The notes beneath the pieces are model-generated. The model was not told the DNA's origin, ran no database searches, and was given only the letters and a program-made list of their open reading frames with translations. The translations under genes were made by a program, and so were the position numbers. 36,347 nt of DNA from NCBI GenBank assembly GCA_018334875.1, contig JAGXLC010000007.1:1-36347 (forward strand). The letters run 5' to 3'. This DNA is from Bacteroidales bacterium (GTDB lineage: Bacteria; Bacteroidota; Bacteroidia; Bacteroidales; UBA12077). Shown here piece after piece: positions 12,658-36,260 of this stretch (within the stretch, counting starts at the first letter, position 1; each line of letters begins with the position of its first letter).

Positions 12658-14079
12658 ATGCAGAAGACAAAGATTGTGGCCACCATATCGGATCAGCACG
12701 CTGATGTAGATTTTATTCATTCCCTTTACAATGAGGGTATGAATGTGATTCGTTTGAATACAGCTCATCAGAATCCCGATCAAACGAAAATGATCGTGGA
12801 CAACGCCCGTGAGGTCTCCGAAAAAATTGCCTTGTTACTGGATACAAAAGGACCGGAGCTCCGAACAACAGCATCATCCAGTGAACTGTCAGCAAGTAAG
12901 GGCGATATACTGTATGTGGAAGGAGATCCCGAAGGAGAGTCTGAAGGAGACCGGCTCTATGTCAATTACAAAGATCTTGCAAAGGATGTTCCGGAAGGCA
13001 GTGAAATTCTTATTGATGATGGGGACATCAGTCTGACGGTTCAGGAAAAGGATAAAACTACACTGGTATGCCGGGTAAACAATACAGGGGTGATCAAACC
13101 CAGAAAAAGCATCAACATACCCAAGGTTAAGATAAACCTTCCATGCGTTACGGAAAAGGACAACCAGTACATCCATTTTGCCATAGAGCAGGAACTTGAC
13201 TTTATAGCCCATTCCTTTGTCAGGAGTAAAGAAGATGTACTGGCGGTTCAGCATATCCTGGATGAGCATGAAAGTGATATTAAGATTGTAGCCAAAATAG
13301 AAAACCAGCAGGGTGTGGATAACATTGATGAAATCCTGGATTATGCTTATGGAATTATGGTGGCCAGGGGAGACCTCGGTATAGAGATACCCTACGAAAA
13401 AATCCCGGGCATTCAAAAGTACCTGGTGAACAAATGTATCGAACGGAGGCGACCTGTAATCATCGCTACCCAAATGTTGCATTCGATGATTGAAAATCCC
13501 CGACCTACCAGGGCTGAAGTTACCGATGTTGCCAGCGCCATATACGGTCAGGCTGATGCTGTTATGCTTAGCGGAGAAACTGCAACCGGAAAATATCCGG
13601 TGGAATCTGTACGTACCATGGCCCGTGTAGCCCAAGAGGTAGAGAATTCAAAAGAACCTTTTTATGATGCACCTGAATTTGTTCTTAACAATGAAGTGAC
13701 GGCTTATTTGTGTAAATCAGCCGTTAAAGCTTCTATCAGGCTTGATGCGAAAGCTGTTATTGCCGATACCACTTCCGGGAAAACCATAAGAAGTATTTCT
13801 TCCTACAGGGGCAATAAACCGGTATATGCTCAGTGTTATTCACGGAAAACAATGAGGAAACTGCAATTGTCCTATGGAGTTTTTACCGACTTCATGAAAC
13901 CGCGCAGCACTTCACATGATTTTCTGAAGTCTGCCATTTCTAACCTGAAACAATATCATCATTTCAAGGATGAGGATTTGGTTGTGGTTATTGCCGGTAA
14001 TTTTGGGAGAAGTGCCGGGGCCACCTATATTGAGATAGGAAGCCTGGAAAATCTGCTGGGAGCCTCTGATGTAATATAG
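12658..14079 (+). CDS. pyk: Pyruvate kinase
   Basis: Pyruvate kinase makes ATP and pyruvate from phosphoenolpyruvate and ADP, the last step of glycolysis. The 473 residues contain the N-terminal MQKTKIVATIS, the VIRLNTAHQ and LLLDTKGPELRT barrel motifs, the metal and substrate lysine in IVAKIENQQG, VARGDLGIEIP, and the signature ENPRPTRAEVTDVASAIYG followed by DAVMLSGETATGKYP. The C-terminal allosteric domain is present, ending GRSAGATYIEIGSLENLL. It lies 36 bp after aroQ. A 178-bp repeat element begins 20 bp after the stop. Confidence 0.95.
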   Translation: MQKTKIVATISDQHADVDFIHSLYNEGMNVIRLNTAHQNPDQTKMIVDNAREVSEKIALLLDTKGPELRTTASSSELSASKGDILYVEGDPEGESEGDRLYVNYKDLAKDVPEGSEILIDDGDISLTVQEKDKTTLVCRVNNTGVIKPRKSINIPKVKINLPCVTEKDNQYIHFAIEQELDFIAHSFVRSKEDVLAVQHILDEHESDIKIVAKIENQQGVDNIDEILDYAYGIMVARGDLGIEIPYEKIPGIQKYLVNKCIERRRPVIIATQMLHSMIENPRPTRAEVTDVASAIYGQADAVMLSGETATGKYPVESVRTMARVAQEVENSKEPFYDAPEFVLNNEVTAYLCKSAVKASIRLDAKAVIADTTSGKTIRSISSYRGNKPVYAQCYSRKTMRKLQLSYGVFTDFMKPRSTSHDFLKSAISNLKQYHHFKDEDLVVVIAGNFGRSAGATYIEIGSLENLLGASDVI

Positions 14080-14098
14080 AAATAGTACAGTTAGATAG

Positions 14099-14276
14099 TG
14101 TTTGTCCATAAAGTCAAAGAGATTTGAAAGAGTCTCGTCTAGAATGTTCGCTGGCAAGGCTTGCGAGTTTTGAATGCCGAATGTAGAGACGTACGGCCGT
14201 ACGTCTCTACCAAATATAATTGACTGGCATGAAAAACGAGCGTAACGCAGCCAGCGGATATTATAGACAGACTCTA
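14099..14276. repeat. 178-bp palindromic repeat element, copy 1
   Basis: The element matches 31477-31654 without gaps; I count 18 differences in 178 positions. At its centre is a perfect 28-bp palindrome (14183-14210: GTAGAGACGTACGG followed by its reverse complement). The flanks are also imperfectly complementary: AGAGTCTCGTCT at 14129 faces ATAGACAGACTCT at the right end, and CGCTGG faces CCAGCG, so most of it can fold into one long hairpin. It lies between the convergent pyk and SDR genes. It resembles REP or MITE elements; no transposase is linked. Confidence 0.9.
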
Positions 14277-14340
14277 GATAAAATCCCCTCAAACAATTTA
14301 GTCCATCCGTCATATGATAGGGGTGATGTACATTCACCCG

Positions 14341-15099
14341 TCAAAATCCGTACACAGTGAACCCGCCGTCCACGCTGATGCATTGACCGGTAATGAATTT
14401 GGCAGCCGGCATACACAGATAGGCTGCCAGGGAAGCAACATCCTCCGGATCGCCCACTTTACCCAGTGGTGTTCTGGAGATCACTTCTTCATAATATGAT
14501 TTGTCCTTCAGCACTTCATTGGCCAGAGGTGTTTTGATATACCACGGTGCAATGGCATTGACCCGGATATTGTCCCCGGCCCATTCACAGGCAAGGTTTT
14601 TGGTGAGCTGTATCATGGCAGCTTTGGTCATCCCATATATGGATCCGGTTTTAAGGTGCTTTTGACCGGCCACCGACGATACGTTAATTATGGAAGCCCC
14701 GCCCGATTTTCTGAGCAGGGGTAGTGCATTCCTGCTCATTTCAAATGCAGAGGTAAGGTTGGTTTGGATAATCTTTTCATATTCTTCCCGGGTATATTCT
14801 TCGGTTTTTTTCCGAATGTTTATTCCCACATTATTAACAAGAATATCCAGTTTTCCGAATTTTTCTTCCACATATCCGGTTATCTTCCTGTAAGCCTCCT
14901 TCTGACTCAAATCCTCCCGTATTCCTATCAGCTTTTCTCCTTCCACTTCCTCCATCTTTTCGAGATCTTCCTGCGATCGGGCAATCACGCAAACCCATGC
15001 GCCAAAAGAGAGGAACTCCTTTGCAATGGCTGCGCCAATCCCTCTTGTGCCCCCGGTTACTATGGCAATTTTGTTTTCAAGCGTCCATCTTGTATTCAT
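14341..15099 (-). CDS. SDR family oxidoreductase
   Basis: This is a classical short-chain dehydrogenase/reductase of 252 residues. The dinucleotide-binding motif [12 protein letters not shown] is near residues 15-26, the NNVGIN motif near 89-94, the catalytic Ser is in INVSSVAG, and the Tyr/Lys pair is in IYGMTKAAM. The C-terminal [13 protein letters not shown] is typical. The sequence resembles the tropinone-reductase-like and 3-oxoacyl-ACP-reductase-like groups (NNVGI in place of the common NNAGI). The substrate is unknown. It lies downstream of the nifS-selD fusion on the same strand, with 132 bp between. Confidence 0.85.
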
Positions 15100-15231: not shown

Positions 15232-17439
15232 TCATAGGTCTTTTTTTATAGTGATTATTCCTGTGTCAAATTTGGTGAAACGGCCTATTTTGGCGGCATA
15301 TTTAATTCCTGCCTGATGCAGGTCTGAGATGATCTGTTCCTCATATTGTTCCGGGACAGCAAACAGAAGTCCACCGGAGGTTTGCGCATCACACAAAATG
15401 TATTGCTCTGTTTGGGAAATCCGATCATCCCAGCTTGTTTTATTGTCCAGGAAGTTCAGATTATCCCGGGTGCCTCCGGGAATGATGCCGCCACCTGCAA
15501 ATTCCCATACTTCATCAATGACAGGAATTTTATCGGCATATATCTCAGCATCAATCTTTTCAGGAGCGGTCATCTCACTCAAATGACCCAAAAGTCCAAA
15601 CCCTGTCACATCAGTACATGCATGCACCGGATAATTTCTTATAATTTCGGCGGTTTTTTTGTTGAGTGCTGTCATGTATCCGGTAAGCTTCCTCTGCACT
15701 TCCTCATTTGCCAATCCCTTCTTCAGGGCTGTTGCTAGTATTCCGGTTCCTATGGGCTTGGTAAGGATCAGGGAGTCTCCTTCGCGGGAGCCTGAGTTTC
15801 TCCATATCTTTTCGGGATGGACCCGTCCGGTGACCACCATTCCATATTTGGGTTCATGGTCGTCTACGGTGTGTCCTCCCAGGATATTGATGCCTGCTTC
15901 ACGAGCCTTTTCCCTCGCTCCCTCGAGGATTTCCTGCAAAAGTGAAATGGGTAGACGTTTTGAAGGGAATCCGACTATGTTCAACCCAAACAGCGGAATG
16001 GCCCCCATTGCGTACAGGTCACTCAGTGCATTGGCAGCAGCAATGGCTCCAAAATCATAGCCGTTGTCTACGATGGGAGTAAAGAAGTCCAGGGTCTGGA
16101 CAATAGCTACCTCCTCGGTGATTTTATAAACCGCGGCATCATCTGAAGTTCGTGTATCGGCAAGTATGTTGGGATCATCCGTCACGGGAATTTTGCTGAG
16201 CAGCTTTTCCAGTTCCTGGGGCCTCAGTTTACAAGCGCAACCCATGCCTTGCGTGTAGTGGGTGAGCTTAATTTTGCCGGTTTCTTCTTCAGTCGATTCA
16301 CCTCCGGCATTCATACGTGATAGGGTTTTCGTGATGATCTTTGCACATTCACTGATCTCTTCCCTGGTGGTGTACTTTCCGGTAGAGAATCTGAGTGTGC
16401 CCATAGCAAATTGTTCTTCTACTCCAATGGCCCGGAGTACCGCTGAAATATCTATGTTATCGGTATGGCAGGCAGCTCCGGCGGAGGCTGCTATACCTCT
16501 GTCAGAAAGTTCGTTTAAGAGAATATTGGCCTCTATGTTGGGGAAGCTTACCGAAAGGGTGTTGGGCAGTCGCTTTTCCGGATGTCCGTTCAGCCTGATG
16601 TCGGGAAAATTTTTTTCAAGTTGCTGATGGAGCATATCCCTTGTTTCCTTCATGATTTCCGCGTTTTTACTCAGATCCCTGCGGGCCGCCTCGCAGGCTT
16701 TCCCCAGGCCGGCAATTTCTATTACGTTTTCGGTCCCGGCTCTCATATTTCTTTCATGATCCGCACCGTGTATCAGCTTTTCCAGATGAACGCCTTCCCT
16801 GATATATAGCGCACCGACACCCTTGGGGCCGTAGAGTTTATGCCCGGCAATAGATAGCAGGTCCACCCCGGTTTCTTTTGCATTAAGGGTAATTTTTCCT
16901 GCTGACTGCGCTGCATCTGTATGAAAAAGTATATGACGGGCCTTTGCTGTTTGAGCAATCTCTTCAATCGGTTGGATGGTGCCAATTTCGTTATTGGCGT
17001 GCATGATGGTGATCAAAATGGTATCTGTTTTAATGGCATCTTTTAATTCATCCATACGGACAAGGCCATACTCATCCACGGGAAGATATGTAACGGAAAA
17101 ACCATTTTCTTCCAGGTATTTACATACTTCTGTTACAGCAGGGTGCTCTATTTCGGAAGTGATAAGATGGTTCCCTTTATCCCGGCAGGCAAAGGCAGCC
17201 CCTTTGATTGCATAGTTGTTGGATTCTGTACCGCCACTGGTAAAAACAATTTCGTGAGGCCGGCAGCCGATTAGATCAGCAACTTGTTTGCGTGCCTTTT
17301 CCACTGCCTTCTTCCCTTCAATGCCAAACTGATGCATGCTTGACGGATTGCCGAAATAATGGTCGATAAAAGGCTTCATGGCTTCTGCAACTTCCCTGTC
17401 AATGGGTGTGGTGGCATTGTAATCCAGATAAACTTCCAT
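15232..17439 (-). CDS. Fused cysteine desulfurase - selenide, water dikinase (NifS-SelD)
   Basis: One uninterrupted frame of 735 residues joins two enzymes. Residues 1-375 are a NifS/IscS-type PLP enzyme: EVYLDYNATTPID at the start, H-x2 signatures, the Schiff-base Lys201 in SIAGHKLYGPKG, and the sulfur/selenium-accepting Cys324 in GAACHTDN. A short charged linker (about 376-389) leads into SelD, with the catalytic Cys401 and Lys404 in GMGCACKL, the ATP-binding Asp pair DD433-434, and later GGHTVDD, ACTDVTGFGLLGH and DAQTSGGLL. The NifS half would release selenium (or sulfur) from selenocysteine/cysteine, and the SelD half makes selenophosphate from selenide and ATP. Catalytic residues of both halves are intact, and SelD uses Cys, not Sec. 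No selA, selB, tRNA-Sec or mnmH is in the window, so the use of the selenophosphate is not shown. Confidence 0.93.
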   Translation of the reverse strand: MEVYLDYNATTPIDREVAEAMKPFIDHYFGNPSSMHQFGIEGKKAVEKARKQVADLIGCRPHEIVFTSGGTESNNYAIKGAAFACRDKGNHLITSEIEHPAVTEVCKYLEENGFSVTYLPVDEYGLVRMDELKDAIKTDTILITIMHANNEIGTIQPIEEIAQTAKARHILFHTDAAQSAGKITLNAKETGVDLLSIAGHKLYGPKGVGALYIREGVHLEKLIHGADHERNMRAGTENVIEIAGLGKACEAARRDLSKNAEIMKETRDMLHQQLEKNFPDIRLNGHPEKRLPNTLSVSFPNIEANILLNELSDRGIAASAGAACHTDNIDISAVLRAIGVEEQFAMGTLRFSTGKYTTREEISECAKIITKTLSRMNAGGESTEEETGKIKLTHYTQGMGCACKLRPQELEKLLSKIPVTDDPNILADTRTSDDAAVYKITEEVAIVQTLDFFTPIVDNGYDFGAIAAANALSDLYAMGAIPLFGLNIVGFPSKRLPISLLQEILEGAREKAREAGINILGGHTVDDHEPKYGMVVTGRVHPEKIWRNSGSREGDSLILTKPIGTGILATALKKGLANEEVQRKLTGYMTALNKKTAEIIRNYPVHACTDVTGFGLLGHLSEMTAPEKIDAEIYADKIPVIDEVWEFAGGGIIPGGTRDNLNFLDNKTSWDDRISQTEQYILCDAQTSGGLLFAVPEQYEEQIISDLHQAGIKYAAKIGRFTKFDTGIITIKKDL

Positions 17440-26614: not shown

Positions 26615-28981
26615 CTACTCCGCCTTTTTGACCTTGATGCCTTTTGGTACCTTGATTCCCAGCATGTCTGTAAATTTCTCCACCAGGTTGTAGATGGTCT
26701 CACGGGTTTCTTCGTCAAAATCTTCCAATGTCAACTCTTCGGACTGAACTTTTGAAAGAAAGGTGGAACCCAGAATGGATCTTGACATGTTGTTGTTCTC
26801 GATATAATCCGAATTGGCTTCAGTGATGCCAATGCGTTTGTTAAGTATGTGCTTTTTGAAATCAAGTGTGGAGAAGATGTCCTCGATCTTTCTGAAGCCC
26901 TCATCCAGGATGAGTATCTTCTCCTTGGTTTTTTCATCATCGTTCTGGAAAAGGTTATGCCTGAAATAGTCGTATATATCCCGGCCTTCATCATGGTTGC
27001 CCAGGATGATGTAAAATCCGAGTTTCCAACCCATCAGCAGGTTGGCCAGAGAAGTGACATTGGAAACATCGGAGGCGGGCAGGAAATAAAGTTCTTCATT
27101 CAGTCCCACAATCCTGTAAAGGGCATTAAAGAAATAGTAGGAAGCGATATCCTCTACGATGATGTTGTTGTCCTTCTGGACAAATTTTTGATCGTTCAGG
27201 CGTGTGCCCATCAATACATAGATAGGGGAGAGGGTGTCACTCGAGGCGGTTTTGAAGGAACCGGGTTCAAAGATTACTGTTTCGCTGTATTCTTCTTCAT
27301 CGGCTCTTTGAAGGGCCAGAATCCGGTACAGTTTGTTAACGTTGATCAGATGCGGTGAATGTGTGGTATAGAGAATCTGCACATCATTTTTGAGGTCCTC
27401 GAATACCTTGAGCACATCCTCCTGGGCTCTTGCATGCAGGCTTAATGCCGGCTCGTCTATTAACAATACACGGTCGCGGTTCTTATGCTTGGCAAAGGCT
27501 TTCAGCTCAAGATAAAAGGAGAGAAACCATCTCACGCCGCGGCTTCTTTGCTGGGGATAGAGCCTTTCGTCTTTATCCTTAATCCAGAACTCAATGTAGG
27601 GTTTTCCTACCTTTTCCGGTGTATTGTGGTCGTAATGCTCCATCTCAAATGAAATGTGGATTTTGTTGTTCTTGCCCACATTTTGTCTCCAGTATTCATG
27701 GAAATCCACCGTGATCTCATTGTTGAGCTTTTCGATCTTTTGCTTGAGTATCCGGCTGTTCTTCTGGTTGAAGAATTCTGGTTTCAGATTGGTAATTTCC
27801 AGATAGTTTTTAACGGCTTTGAAGCCTTTTACGTTTTCTTTTTCGTTAATGATGTCTTCCAGGTCGATCTTATTGGGCAGCAGGCTGCTGAAATCGTGAA
27901 AAAATTCGAATACCGGCGCATTGTCGAAAAAAAGGCTCCCGAGGGTTTCCAGATCATAGTAATTGTCTTCAATATCCATCTGATTGGTTACTTCCTTATC
28001 AGCTTGGGATTTTGGTGTACCTTCCATGATCATTGCCGCCGTTCTTACCTTAAACCCATATTCCCTTGTCTTACCGGACAACTGCCTGCTCAGTTCCTTG
28101 TAAGACTCTCTCAGGCTTTTTACCTGCATCTCAGCGTTTCTTCGCTCCTTCTCATTGTTGAGAAGGCTATATTCGGCTTCAGCATTCTTTAAATCCCTGT
28201 ATCTGTTCTGAACCTCGTTCTCCAGGCGTTCTTTTTCCTGATTGATGTTTTCAACCTCACTGGCCAGTTTGTATTGGTCTTCCAGTCTCTGAAGCTTTTC
28301 CCCGTGTTCTTTTATTTTATTTTGTATGTCGCTGTGTTCTTCCTGGTACTGTTTTAATGTATCCTGCAGTTCGTTTAGCTTTTCCCTTGCCTGGGCAACA
28401 TTTTTGTTTTTTTTGGATTTATTCAGCGTCTTTTTTTGTGCCTGAATGTTATGTTCTGTTTCCCTGATGAGTTGATCCAACTCATCTTTCCGGTTGATGA
28501 GGCCATCGTATTCCTTTTTCGTCTCTTCATAATCCGTGTAAACCTCGGCCAGTTGATGCCTGGTATTGTTCAGTAATTTTTCTTTCTCCTCCTTCTTTTT
28601 ATCCCAGTATTTTCTGATGGCTTCTTCCTCAATGCTTATCCTGCTGTTGTGCAGATCCTCCCAGGTTCTGCAGATGCTTATGGACTCCAGTTTTTTTATG
28701 ATATTGAGGGCTTCGGGGGGTAATTTGTTGATGTCGACTATATCCTTGTATTGGTCGTCATTTAATTCAAAGGAACAGTATACTTCGGGCATGGAAAGGT
28801 CGCTTCTCAGGATGTCTTCTGATATTTTTCCAGTATAAAAACTTTCCAGGGCTTCCAGTACAGTCGTTTTTCCGGATTCATTCTGCCCGATCAGTATGGT
28901 GATATTGTCATTGGCCGTATTGCACCATCCGGAATCAATTATGGAACGATAATTTTTTATTCTGAAGGATTTTAATTTCAT
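26615..28981 (-). CDS. OLD-like AAA ATPase with central coiled coil and degenerate-looking TOPRIM domain
   Basis: The 788-residue protein opens with an ABC/SMC-type ATPase half (FRIKNYRSI; Walker A GQNESGKTT at 32-40), has a long coiled coil (about 120-310), and then the second ATPase half: signature-like PQQRSRGVRWFLSF (476-489), Walker B VLLIDEPALSLH (505-516) and H-loop THSPHL (540-545). Residues about 600-720 look like a TOPRIM domain of OLD nucleases: E610 in NNIIVED and, where the D-x-D motif is expected, NHDEGRD (662-668). Proteins of this kind include phage-defence nucleases (OLD, GajA). No GajB-type helicase partner is next to it. It lies 21 bp downstream of the SpoIIE-like phosphatase gene, so the pair is likely one transcript. 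Confidence 0.78.
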   Translation of the reverse strand: MKLKSFRIKNYRSIIDSGWCNTANDNITILIGQNESGKTTVLEALESFYTGKISEDILRSDLSMPEVYCSFELNDDQYKDIVDINKLPPEALNIIKKLESISICRTWEDLHNSRISIEEEAIRKYWDKKKEEKEKLLNNTRHQLAEVYTDYEETKKEYDGLINRKDELDQLIRETEHNIQAQKKTLNKSKKNKNVAQAREKLNELQDTLKQYQEEHSDIQNKIKEHGEKLQRLEDQYKLASEVENINQEKERLENEVQNRYRDLKNAEAEYSLLNNEKERRNAEMQVKSLRESYKELSRQLSGKTREYGFKVRTAAMIMEGTPKSQADKEVTNQMDIEDNYYDLETLGSLFFDNAPVFEFFHDFSSLLPNKIDLEDIINEKENVKGFKAVKNYLEITNLKPEFFNQKNSRILKQKIEKLNNEITVDFHEYWRQNVGKNNKIHISFEMEHYDHNTPEKVGKPYIEFWIKDKDERLYPQQRSRGVRWFLSFYLELKAFAKHKNRDRVLLIDEPALSLHARAQEDVLKVFEDLKNDVQILYTTHSPHLINVNKLYRILALQRADEEEYSETVIFEPGSFKTASSDTLSPIYVLMGTRLNDQKFVQKDNNIIVEDIASYYFFNALYRIVGLNEELYFLPASDVSNVTSLANLLMGWKLGFYIILGNHDEGRDIYDYFRHNLFQNDDEKTKEKILILDEGFRKIEDIFSTLDFKKHILNKRIGITEANSDYIENNNMSRSILGSTFLSKVQSEELTLEDFDEETRETIYNLVEKFTDMLGIKVPKGIKVKKAE

Positions 28982-29952: not shown

Positions 29953-31305
29953 TTAAAAATAATCCAGACCTGTATAATTCCACGGGCTGATTTTTTTGAG
30001 CTTTTCCCTGACCGATTCATTCACATCCAGTTGATCTATGAATTCAATAAAGTCGTTTTGGGTTAATTGTTTGTTTTTACGAGTAAAATGCTTTAAAAGT
30101 TCGTACGGATTTTCTATTCCTTCTTTTCTCAGCATGGTTTGGATTGCTTCGGCAACAACGCTCCAGTTTTCCTCCAGGTCCCGGTCAATGGCTTCTTTGT
30201 TCAGTGTAATTTTATTCAATCCTTTGGTCAGTGATTGAAAAGCAATGAGTGTATGGGCAAAAGGCACGCCAATATTCCTGGAAACGGTAGAATCCGTAAG
30301 ATCTCTCTGCAACCTGGAAATTGGAAGCTTGGATGCCATGTGTTCCAGGATGGCATTGGCCATGCCCAGGTTTCCCTCTGCATTCTCAAAATCTATGGGG
30401 TTTACCTTATGGGGCATTACCGAGGAACCTACTTCTCCTTTTTTGATCTTTTGTTTGAAATAGTTCATGGAGATATAACTCCACATATCCCTGGAAAGAT
30501 CGGTCAAAATGGTGTTGATCCGGCACATACCATGGAAAAATGACGCCAGGTTATCGTAATGTTCGATCTGGGTGGTGATCTTTGATCTTTCCAGTCCCAG
30601 CCCTTTATTTACAAAGTTATCGGCGAAGGCTTCCCAGTCGATTTCGGGATAAGCCAGGTGATGGGCATTGAAATTACCGGTAGCCCCTCCGAACTTCGCT
30701 GAAAAAGGTATCTGTTTCAGTTGCCTCATCTGCTCGTTTAGGCGCTCGTAAAAAACCCTGATTTCTTTTCCTACCCGTGTAGGTGATGCAGGCTGGCCGT
30801 GTGTATGGGCAAGCATCGGAATGTCCTTCCATTCCCGGGAAAGTTCATCCAGCTTTTTAAGGAGACTTTCAATATGGGGAAGGTAATGGTTGTTAAATGC
30901 ATCCTTCAGTGAAAGCGGTGTGGCTGTGTTATTGATGTCCTGCGAAGTTAGTCCGAAATGTATGAATTCCTTATAATCTTTAAGCCCCAGCTCAATGAAT
31001 TGTTCCTTCAGGAAATATTCTACCGCTTTTACGTCATGATTTGTTTCTTTTTCAATTTCCTTGATCTTTTCTGCGTCTTTGAGATCGAAGTTTTTGTATA
31101 TCCTGCGTAAAGGCTCAAAAAACTCATGGTTGAAACTTTTCAGTTCCGGAAGGGGAATAAGGCACAGATGGATGAAATATTCCATTTCGATCCGGATGCG
31201 GTATTTGATGAGTCCGAATTCTGAGAAATAGCGGTCTGTTTCTTCTGTTTTCCTTCGGTATCTTCCATCTATGGGAGATATGGCCGTAAGTGCATTTAAA
31301 TCCAT
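29953..31305 (-). CDS. purB: Adenylosuccinate lyase
   Basis: The 450-residue enzyme cleaves adenylosuccinate to AMP and fumarate, and also the SAICAR step, in purine synthesis. It belongs to the fumarase/aspartase superfamily: the N-terminus LTAISPIDGRYRRKTEE, the LTSQDINNTATP motif, the catalytic His region AHTHGQPASPTRVGKE, and the flexible signature loop GSSVMPHKVNPIDFENAEG (about 295-313) are present. Length agrees with the E. coli-type PurB. It is a single gene with its own promoter element. Confidence 0.95.
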   Translation of the reverse strand: MDLNALTAISPIDGRYRRKTEETDRYFSEFGLIKYRIRIEMEYFIHLCLIPLPELKSFNHEFFEPLRRIYKNFDLKDAEKIKEIEKETNHDVKAVEYFLKEQFIELGLKDYKEFIHFGLTSQDINNTATPLSLKDAFNNHYLPHIESLLKKLDELSREWKDIPMLAHTHGQPASPTRVGKEIRVFYERLNEQMRQLKQIPFSAKFGGATGNFNAHHLAYPEIDWEAFADNFVNKGLGLERSKITTQIEHYDNLASFFHGMCRINTILTDLSRDMWSYISMNYFKQKIKKGEVGSSVMPHKVNPIDFENAEGNLGMANAILEHMASKLPISRLQRDLTDSTVSRNIGVPFAHTLIAFQSLTKGLNKITLNKEAIDRDLEENWSVVAEAIQTMLRKEGIENPYELLKHFTRKNKQLTQNDFIEFIDQLDVNESVREKLKKISPWNYTGLDYF

Positions 31306-31336: not shown

Positions 31337-31476
31337 GAAAAATTTGGCTCCCGTTTTTCTTTTAATCGTAATAAATACGCTTTACAATGAAGTGAAAGCT
31401 CGGAGGTGAATTAGAATTGAACCCTTGCTGTTAAAATTTGTAAAAAATGCGTGTGGATTGTTAAATAAATAATTGG

Positions 31477-31654
31477 TGTTTGTCCATAAAATCAAATAGA
31501 TTTGAAAGAGTCTCGTCTGGAATGTCCGCTGATAAGGTTGGGGAGTTTTGAATGCCAAATGTAGAGACGTACGGCCGTACGTCTCTACCAGATATAATTG
31601 ATTGGCATGAAAAATGATCGTAACGAAGCCATCGGACATTATAGACAGCCTCTA
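31477..31654. repeat. 178-bp palindromic repeat element, copy 2
   Basis: This second copy of the 14099-14276 element has the same orientation and equal length. The central 28-bp palindrome (31561-31588) is identical in both copies. Substitutions are mostly in the arms, where the two strands of the hairpin have diverged. It lies between the divergent purB and nfeD-like genes. Confidence 0.9.
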
Positions 31655-31730
31655 ATTAGGCACATAGGATGGATTTGTTTCAGTCCGGATTATATACCGG
31701 TAATTCAGCCGTTTTTAGTAATGGAAGCTT

Positions 31731-31822: not shown

Positions 31823-33289
31823 ATGATAAACATAAACTTTACAAGAGCTTTATCACTACAGACGGTATTCATGATGGTCATACTGGCGGTAAGTTTTTCG
31901 GTTTTGCCCCGGGAAACAGCAGGAAGGGAGTCTTTAAGACAGAATGAACCCACCGACAGTTTGCTGGTATACAATTTTGATATCACCCAGAACATTGAGC
32001 CGGCTGCCTGGCGACTTACCAAACGGGCATTTGCCGAGGCACAGGAGCTTAATGCAGATTATATCGTTGTCAATATGAATACCTACGGAGGTTTGGTGAA
32101 TATTGCCGATTCCATAAGAAGTAAGTTTCTGGACAGCAAGATACCGGTAATCGTATTTATTACCAACAATGCTGCCTCAGCCGGTGCGTTGATCTCCATT
32201 GCTGCTGACAGCATTTATATGAAGGAAGGGGCACGGATAGGGGCGGCCTCGGTGGTCAATCAACAGGGTGAGGTCATGCCTGAAAAGTATCAGTCATATA
32301 TGCGGTCGACCATGCGGGCTACTGCTGAGGCCCAGGGCAGGGATACACTCATAAGGGGGAAAGATACACTTATCCGGTGGCGGAGGGATCCCCGTATTGC
32401 TGAGGCCATGGTAGATCCTGAAATTTCCGTGGAAGGTGTGGTAGATGATACCAAGGTTTTAACCTTTACTACAGAGGAAGCCATTGAAAACGGTTATTGC
32501 GAAGGCAAAAGAGAAAATATAAAGGAACTGCTTGAAAAGGCCAATATACAGCCCTACAAGATCCGGCGTTATGAGATTACAGGACTGGAGTCTCTGACCG
32601 GTTTTCTTATGAACCCGGCATTTCAAAGTATATTGATCATGATCATTGTAGGAGGTATTTATTTTGAATTGCAATCGCCGGGAATCGGATTCCCCTTGCT
32701 TGCCGCCGTTATTGCGGCTGCCCTTTATTTTGCACCCCTTTATGCCGAAGGCATTGCCCAGCACTGGGAGCTTGGTCTTTTCATTCTCGGGTTAATCCTT
32801 ATCGGCATCGAGATTTTCGCCATACCGGGGTTCGGTGTCGCCGGTATTGGAGGTATCCTGCTGACTGTAGCCGGTTTGGTGTTGAGTATGATCGACAACA
32901 TTGTTTTTGACTATCAGTTGCACACCGAAGAAGCCGTCAAGGCAGTGCTGAAAGCTTTCTTCATTGTCTCCTTGTCCATTTTCATTGCCCTGATACTTTC
33001 CATCTATCTAAGCAAAAAACTCCTGACATCAACCCGTCTTTCCCAGCTTGTGCTGGACAGCACCCAGCAAACAGATGAAGGATATATAGGGGTTGATATG
33101 GAAATGAAGAGTCTGGTGGGCAAAACAGGAGTCGCCAGTACGGTACTCCGGCCAGGTGGAAAGGTGGAGGTTGACGGGGAAATCTATGATGCCCGTGCAG
33201 AAGTTGGATTTATTGACAAAGGCGAAAAGGTAAAAGTGATTCAGTACGGTACCAGCCAGTTGGTGGTTATAAAGGAAGAGGAGAGCTGA
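31823..33289 (+). CDS. NfeD family membrane-bound serine protease
   Basis: The 488-residue protein has an N-terminal hydrophobic segment (about 9-30), a ClpP-fold protease domain (about 45-240) with the catalytic Ser119 in TNNAASAGALIS and probable Lys155 in MPEKYQSYMRS, several membrane helices (about 265-400), and a C-terminal OB-fold NfeD domain (about 425-485; VGKTGVASTVLRPGGKVEVDG). NfeD1b-type proteases associate with SPFH/flotillin proteins to control membrane quality. The partner gene normally lies next to it, but here the next gene encodes a symporter. Its last codons and stop fall inside a heptamer repeat array. Confidence 0.92.
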   Translation: MININFTRALSLQTVFMMVILAVSFSVLPRETAGRESLRQNEPTDSLLVYNFDITQNIEPAAWRLTKRAFAEAQELNADYIVVNMNTYGGLVNIADSIRSKFLDSKIPVIVFITNNAASAGALISIAADSIYMKEGARIGAASVVNQQGEVMPEKYQSYMRSTMRATAEAQGRDTLIRGKDTLIRWRRDPRIAEAMVDPEISVEGVVDDTKVLTFTTEEAIENGYCEGKRENIKELLEKANIQPYKIRRYEITGLESLTGFLMNPAFQSILIMIIVGGIYFELQSPGIGFPLLAAVIAAALYFAPLYAEGIAQHWELGLFILGLILIGIEIFAIPGFGVAGIGGILLTVAGLVLSMIDNIVFDYQLHTEEAVKAVLKAFFIVSLSIFIALILSIYLSKKLLTSTRLSQLVLDSTQQTDEGYIGVDMEMKSLVGKTGVASTVLRPGGKVEVDGEIYDARAEVGFIDKGEKVKVIQYGTSQLVVIKEEES

Positions 33290-33343
33290 GAACTGGGATC
33301 TGAGAACTGGGAACTGGGAACTGAGAACTGAGCACTGAGCGCT
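33281..33343 (+). repeat. Heptamer tandem repeat, nine units
   Basis: Nine perfectly phased 7-bp units of the form G-R-G-A-A-C-T (GAGAGCT, GAGAACT, GGGATCT, GAGAACT, and so on) run from the last codons of the NfeD-family gene, across its stop codon, into the gap. It resembles cyanobacterial heptameric STRR sequences in design. Confidence 0.9.
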
Positions 33344-33494: not shown

Positions 33495-33606
33495 TTCCGT
33501 CGTTCCATCGCGCCTTCATTCCATCGCTCTCTCGTTCCATCGTGCTGTCGTGCCGTCGTTCCATCGTGCCGTCGTTCTTTCGTGCCCTCGTGCCGTCGTA
33601 CAATCG
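33495..33606 (+). repeat. Octamer tandem repeat array B, fourteen units
   Basis: Fourteen consecutive 8-bp units keep perfect phase. Most read TTCCATCG, TGCCGTCG or close variants (TGCTGTCG, TTCTTTCG, TGCCCTCG), so the last three bases TCG are nearly fixed and the first five vary. Open frames across it encode 8-residue repeats and are by-products of the array. Confidence 0.9.
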
Positions 33607-33715
33607 TTCCCCAATCTCTGACAATACGGCAGAGGCAACCGATTATTATGAATATTGGTTTTCCGGTAGGGGAATCATTAAAAAGTTATAACTTTGAGCG
33701 CTTAAAGTATTGATT

Positions 33716-36175: not shown

Positions 36176-36239
36176 TTCCATCGTTCTTTCGTACCGTCGT
36201 GCCGTCGTGCCGTCGTGCCCTCGTGCCCTCGTGCCGTCG
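36176..36239 (+). repeat. Octamer tandem repeat array C, eight units
   Basis: Eight in-phase 8-bp units (TTCCATCG, TTCTTTCG, TACCGTCG, TGCCGTCG twice, TGCCCTCG twice, TGCCGTCG) have the same consensus and direction as array B, 2.6 kb away. Confidence 0.9.
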
Positions 36240-36260
36240 TGATTTTTTTTATTTTGATAA

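Follow-up and report, generated by a model that had tools for sequence, protein, structure and literature searches.

Among the described systems closest to the repeat reported here are two MITEs of Bacteroidota, MITECca01 of Cardinium (PMC9769881) and BrickBuilt of Porphyromonas gingivalis (PMC4596501), both of which are IS-derived, short and non-coding, with inverted repeats and many intergenic copies; BrickBuilt also resembles our element in holding a trapped passenger repeat. Their ends are IS982- or IS5-like, whereas those of our element are ISNCY-like with a TAWWTA target, and the passenger that it holds is a palindrome that recurs in different phyla. By its termini the element is closest to the ISNCY insertion sequences of the ISRsp17/ISRm17 type, with which it has in common terminal repeats (GTGYCYGTCCATAAA) and a 6-7-bp TA...TA target duplication, and sister elements carry a DDE_Tnp_1 transposase that scores above the ISNCY_1 cut-off. 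It differs from them in having no gene of its own and in agreeing over only about 18 terminal bp; the annotated rhizobial elements of the ISRsp17 type end in GTGCCCGTCCATAAAC and make a 7-bp duplication (TAGTCTA) rather than one of 6 bp, and transposase identity to them is only 33-35%.

The third comparison concerns the 28-bp palindrome at the centre of the element, referred to below as the core. GTAG-tagged REPs (Di Nocera 2013, PMC3733652) likewise begin with GTAG, form palindromes of 20-40 bp in which inner residues change complementarily, and sometimes lie inside longer palindromes. However, the core is symmetrical over its full 28 bp, its GTAG is base-paired with a terminal CTAC and does not stand unpaired as a tag at one end, and no RAYT was found beside it. 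The same survey lists Bacteroidetes with CGTC repeats, not with GTAG repeats (PMC3733652).

Borders, copy number and insertion sites

The window, the whole 36,347-nucleotide stretch of Bacteroidales DNA that was analysed, contains two copies of the element (Table 1). Alignment confirmed the earlier description of two ungapped 178-bp copies that differ at 18 positions and have an identical, perfect 28-bp palindrome. The places given then (14099-14276 and 31477-31654) were right but the ends were not: when genomic copies were aligned together with their flanks, the left end moved one base to the left and the right end was drawn in by two bases, leaving a 177-bp element that in copy 1 begins with G and ends with C. 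Copy 1 lies between convergent genes for a pyruvate kinase (ending at 14079) and an SDR dehydrogenase (ending at 14341), and copy 2 between divergent genes, one ending at 31305 (-) and one starting at 31823 (+). The predicted fold of the element has a dG of -38.9 kcal/mol compared with -17.4 +/- 2.9 kcal/mol for shuffled sequences (z -7.5), far beyond chance.

Table 1. Features of the two window copies and the two intact insertion sequences with matching ends
Feature	Position	Strand	Details	Basis or score
MITE copy 1	14098..14274	+	177 bp	genomic copies aligned with flanks
Copy 1, left target duplication	14092..14097	.	TAGATA, 6 bp	flank alignment
Copy 1, right target duplication	14275..14280	.	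TAGATA	flank alignment
Copy 1, left terminal inverted repeat	14098..14115	+	GTGTTTGTCCATAAAGTC	terminal-repeat search
Copy 1, right terminal inverted repeat	14257..14274	-	GAGTCTGTCTATAATATC	terminal-repeat search
Copy 1, left inner arm of fold-back stem	14130..14178	+	complementary to 14226-14274	fold, alignment
Copy 1, right arm of fold-back stem	14226..14274	+		fold, alignment
Copy 1, 28-bp perfect palindrome	14183..14210	.	GTAGAGACGTACGGCCGTACGTCTCTAC, tip of fold-back	sequence
MITE copy 2	31476..31652	+	177 bp	genomic copies aligned with flanks
Copy 2, left target duplication	31470..31475	.	TAATTG, one mismatch to right	flank alignment
Copy 2, right target duplication	31653..31658	.	TAATTA	flank alignment
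Copy 2, 28-bp palindrome	31561..31588	.	GTAGAGACGTACGGCCGTACGTCTCTAC, identical to copy 1	sequence
Intact IS	L392:506-2143 (G325)		1638 bp, transposase 446 aa	ISNCY_1 372.6
Intact IS	L397:502-2143 (G114)		1642 bp, transposase 452 aa	ISNCY_1 331.9

The repeated element is a MITE, not a RAYT/REP element and not a segmental duplication. It is 177 bp long (below 400 bp) and non-coding, with 18-bp inverted ends. A search of its whole own genome with the 178-bp query found at least 40 near-full-length places at 85-100% identity, and the terminal repeat GWGTYTGTCYATAAWRTC had at least 174 matches there with up to two mismatches, compared with seven for the reversed control. About 65 copies were counted and at least 64 could be measured, most of the measured ones being 155-178 bp long; these counts come from sequence searches of the genome and are lower bounds. 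Across the 64 elements, flanking positions 1 to 6 agree between the two sides at frequencies of 0.84, 0.89, 0.84, 0.91, 0.94 and 0.78, falling to 0.14-0.28 just outside. The target duplication thus has a constant length of 6 bp, with the consensus TAWWTA, and at least five of its six positions match in 55 of the 64.

The convergent pyruvate kinase-SDR pair is kept in four genomes of the same genus (G001-G004). In G004 its spacer is about 42 bp and is without the element, which identifies an empty site; the spacers in G001, G002 and G003 hold other sequence and also lack the element. The full element was found in none of 58 other relatives searched, and the plasmid and phage collections held no relatives of it. 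Dozens of dispersed copies, 6-bp duplications and a syntenic site empty within the genus together bear out the proposal of the earlier note that the repeat spread recently as a MITE.

The candidate transposase and relatives of the MITE in the order

We consider it highly probable that a single model accounts for the element: a MITE moved in trans by a DDE transposase of the ISNCY family (ISRsp17/ISRm17-like), with a palindrome that it picked up, exchangeable centres, and pairing that is corrected within a hairpin. The ISNCY transposase would bind the terminal repeat, excise or copy the element, and insert it with a 6-bp stagger into a TAWWTA site, giving the 6-bp duplication. The inner arms pair back on each other, with the 28-bp palindrome as the tip in some copies. 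This palindrome, GTAGRGACG-N10-CGTCYCTAC, is a separate and widely dispersed sequence, which one MITE would have acquired and since carried along; on essentially the same arms the GTAG palindrome, GGAGTTTAC...GTAAT and GGAGTCCGG...CCGGAT would be interchangeable as centres, and arms and core would stay paired through template-directed correction whenever a hairpin forms during replication.

A search for DDE_Tnp_1 (PF01609) in 14 genomes rich in the terminal repeat gave 28 places, of which exactly two have the MITE termini and TAATTA on both sides (L392 and L397, Table 1). Both are intact insertion sequences from other genera of the order, so that the ends of the MITE match those of an autonomous element. 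Their transposases, 61% identical to each other, exceed the NCBIfam ISNCY_1 cut-off of 325, which none of 20 other scanned proteins passed; those above any cut-off belonged to IS4, IS5, IS982 or IS1634. For the mechanism, the strongest evidence is that ends, duplication and family agree across phyla. Judged from these sequences, a DDE transposase of the ISNCY family, and not a RAYT, most likely moves the MITE. This link would make the mobility of the MITE testable with a single cloned gene.

The parent was found in only two of the 14 genomes, and the PF01609 search found no ISNCY transposase in the window's own assembly. Multi-copy insertion sequences tend to be lost from draft assemblies, and as this one consists of 533 contigs, loss of the gene and its collapse in assembly are indistinguishable; nevertheless, absence of the parent from the host is real missing evidence. 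What the parent and the MITE have in common is, moreover, confined to about 18 terminal bp. The viral contigs searched did not contain the transposase either. Several other candidates for the parent were rejected. The DDE_Tnp_1 genes of the own genome, one of the IS4 family and two interrupted pseudogenes, lack matching ends; the sequence beside single terminal repeats in that genome consists of ordinary host genes or truncated MITEs; and pairs of terminal repeats 1.0-2.1 kb apart each proved to be two separate MITEs.

The same termini, allowing one mismatch, recur in many genomes of the order (334 matches in G069, 177 in G242, 137 in G365, 136 in G071 and 122 in G325), with controls near zero. 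The examples that we retrieved are fold-back elements of 120-220 bp with TAATTA, TATTTA or TATATA duplications. The subterminal motifs TGCGTTACGCTCGT and AGGCTTGCGAA are kept in these relatives and the remainder has diverged; the relatives are often inserted end to end with a target duplication in common (L187:13123-13272, L199:11604-11919, L194:22-268). G325 also contains minimal elements of 32 bp (L184:142-173) and 40 bp (L182:18690-18729), with little beyond the two ends and with the 6-bp duplications TAAATA and TATATA, respectively; these may belong to the smallest DDE elements that have inserted, or may have lost internal sequence after insertion. Literature searches by end sequence or core sequence returned nothing relevant. 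The MITE itself is of a known kind, and the family to which it belongs in this order is a prolific and apparently undescribed superfamily.

Centres, core symmetry and the palindrome outside the MITE

The ancestral MITE did not include the perfect 28-bp core. Sister copies with equivalent arms have a different centre. The same arms occur in 24 elements of a 155/156-bp form in which the centre is GGAGTTTACTTGATGTAATCGA or GGAGTCCGGCGGCTGCCGGATGA, without the palindrome, and 27 of the 64 elements have the same ends and no match to the core. Where present, the core replaces about 11 bp. A GGAGTTTAC...GTAAA centre occurs in other genera as well and is therefore probably the ancestral one.

Arms and centres are unlinked. 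On a tree the centre class changes 20 times, against a mean of 20.0 when classes are shuffled; r2 with centre class is at most 0.06 at every polymorphic arm site, and window copy 1 has identical arms to one of the 155-bp copies. Either centres have been exchanged between copies, which we suppose to occur by recombination, or there were several masters, identical in their arms, that were active at the same time; several such sources combined with recurrent mutation could account for the unlinking instead of exchange. A palindrome at the tip of a MITE whose centres swap freely would offer a natural experiment on the entry of small palindromes into genomes and their persistence there.

The earlier note took the unchanged core of the two window copies as suggesting recognition by a protein, an active structure or recent spread as a MITE. 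The cores of this pair are indeed identical, but this is accidental to the pair: over 37 copies the core accumulates 0.031 changes per site and the arms 0.036. The core is thus not slower-evolving than the arms, and the argument for protein recognition fails. That the core is special holds good, as a separate palindrome of GTAG type and not by reason of conservation. The feature that is kept is its self-complementarity, which is perfect in 28 of the 37 copies.

Nine of the 37 cores contain a mirrored pair of compensating changes, where 0.24 would be expected; seven of the nine have one change in common, T-A to C-G at positions 10/19, and independent events therefore number fewer than nine. Mirrored changes are also seen in one copy of 176 bp, which has GTAGCGACG...CGTCGCTAC, in arms that changed from CATGAAAAAC to CATTCAAAAC in every class of copy, and where the core is extended by CATCTG...CAGATG. 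Quasipalindrome correction, in which one strand of a hairpin is corrected against the other as template, is a known mutational process. The mirrored changes are typical of it, and would here be explained by template switching within the hairpin; selection for symmetry may be an alternative source of them.

Outside the MITE, the core occurs in the own genome on contigs C22, C3, C26, C338 and C397 (all G000), and among the matches listed in a scan of named genomes it is found by itself, in surroundings that are unrelated, in about ten phyla. The record titles among these matches include Bacteroidota, Spirochaetales, a cyanobacterium, Desulfatirhabdium/Desulfamplus, Chitinivibrionales, Phycisphaerae, Balneolaceae, Chlorobiota, Omnitrophica and FCPU426; the records are mostly metagenome bins, and some taxon assignments may be wrong. 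With its inner ten bases left free, the core matches in 63 of 395 Bacteroidota genomes and a control in almost none. Nineteen of the 39 distinct inner 10-mers are perfectly self-complementary, compared with 0.04 expected; the core is thus a dispersed palindrome with a conserved outer and a co-varying inner stem, as in the GTAG type. Putative viral contigs contain it as well, in seven stretches (L315-L321), and a GTAGGGACG form of the palindrome sits in a cccttccc...gggaaggg hairpin repeated in the genome (G000:C26:209, C26:1544, C397:284).

These observations raise the possibility that the core is itself an active mobile unit which invades the tips of existing hairpins, with the ISNCY-dependent MITE as only one of its hosts. 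On this account GTAGRGACG-N10-CGTCYCTAC would be an independently spreading minimal element that prefers hairpin tips and whose inner half would be rewritten into palindromic form whenever the element moves or is replicated. The very small mobile repeats of cyanobacteria that Elhai described in 2008 are reportedly also very short, dispersed and without a known enzyme, a likeness to the core by description only. In favour of a mobile core, the flanks of solo copies are unrelated from case to case, and nine of 127 cases lie inside a flanking inverted repeat (score of at least 6), among them the tRNA-side hairpin at G000:C22:203, compared with 0.6% in shuffled flank pairings; the association with hairpin tips is real but concerns a minority. 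The 10-bp inner spacing dominates, with 192 cases against 15 for all other spacings, which is partly due to the choice of query. Against it, neither a target duplication nor an enzyme nor an empty site was demonstrated for the solo core, its replacement of MITE sequence is not a clean insertion, and within the MITE it clearly moves with the arms. We put this forward tentatively, as possible but rather unlikely. If true, the sequence of the palindrome would be free and its symmetry kept, in an element common to about ten phyla among the matches listed; in any case its design is constant over that range and it has no known carrier protein.

Alternative readings and other features of the window

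The strong fold and the position of copy 1 between convergent stop codons would suit a structured RNA or a transcription terminator that owes its fold to selection and its copy number to amplification by the host; this reading is nonetheless very improbable. The neighbouring genes of the copies are convergent in 14 cases, tandem in 13 and divergent in 11, with eight copies lying within ORFs of 120 aa or more, and so reveal no preference of orientation; Rfam has no match to the element and recognises only a tRNA in the window; the sites are empty in the genus, and the target duplications show insertion.

Scarcely any weight, and slightly less again, can be given to a REP/REPIN-type element whose mobility would depend on a RAYT (a Y1 tyrosine transposase), with the core as the REP and the arms as its flanks. 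The core does start with GTAG, the tag of GTAG-REPs, REP dimers of Anabaena variabilis lie inside longer palindromes (PMC3733652), and the own genome has three Y1_Tnp genes. However, Y1 transposases do not give rise to a 6-bp duplication or to terminal inverted repeats, the two of these genes that were scored reach 21 and 20 against a REP_Tyr cut-off of 80, and neither the core nor another palindrome adjoins any of the three; the absence of an unpaired tag and the elements with the same ends but no core weigh in the same direction. The REP/RAYT-like idea of the earlier note is accordingly not borne out for the 177-bp unit, and the transposase with matching ends that it proposed to look for exists in the form of ISNCY elements in sister lineages.

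That one segmental duplication made both window copies, as their lying within 17 kb of each other might suggest, is excluded by similarity that stops exactly at the element ends between unrelated flanks, and differing target duplications (TAGATA and TAATTR) and dozens of other copies in the genome likewise leave nothing of this case, in which the mobile-element proposal was to be given up.

Some other features were also observed in the window. A 735-aa ORF at 15232-17439 (-) encodes a cysteine desulfurase (Aminotran_5) fused to a selenophosphate synthetase (AIRS, AIRS_C). The gene at 26615-28981 (-), which could be a defence gene, encodes an AAA_15/AAA_21 ATPase of 788 aa; this has a long coiled coil and is possibly OLD-like. 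The octamer TCGTGCCG forms two separate arrays, at 33497-33610 and 36189-36241, and arrays of a heptamer (GAGAACT) at 33281-33339 adjoin the octamer arrays.
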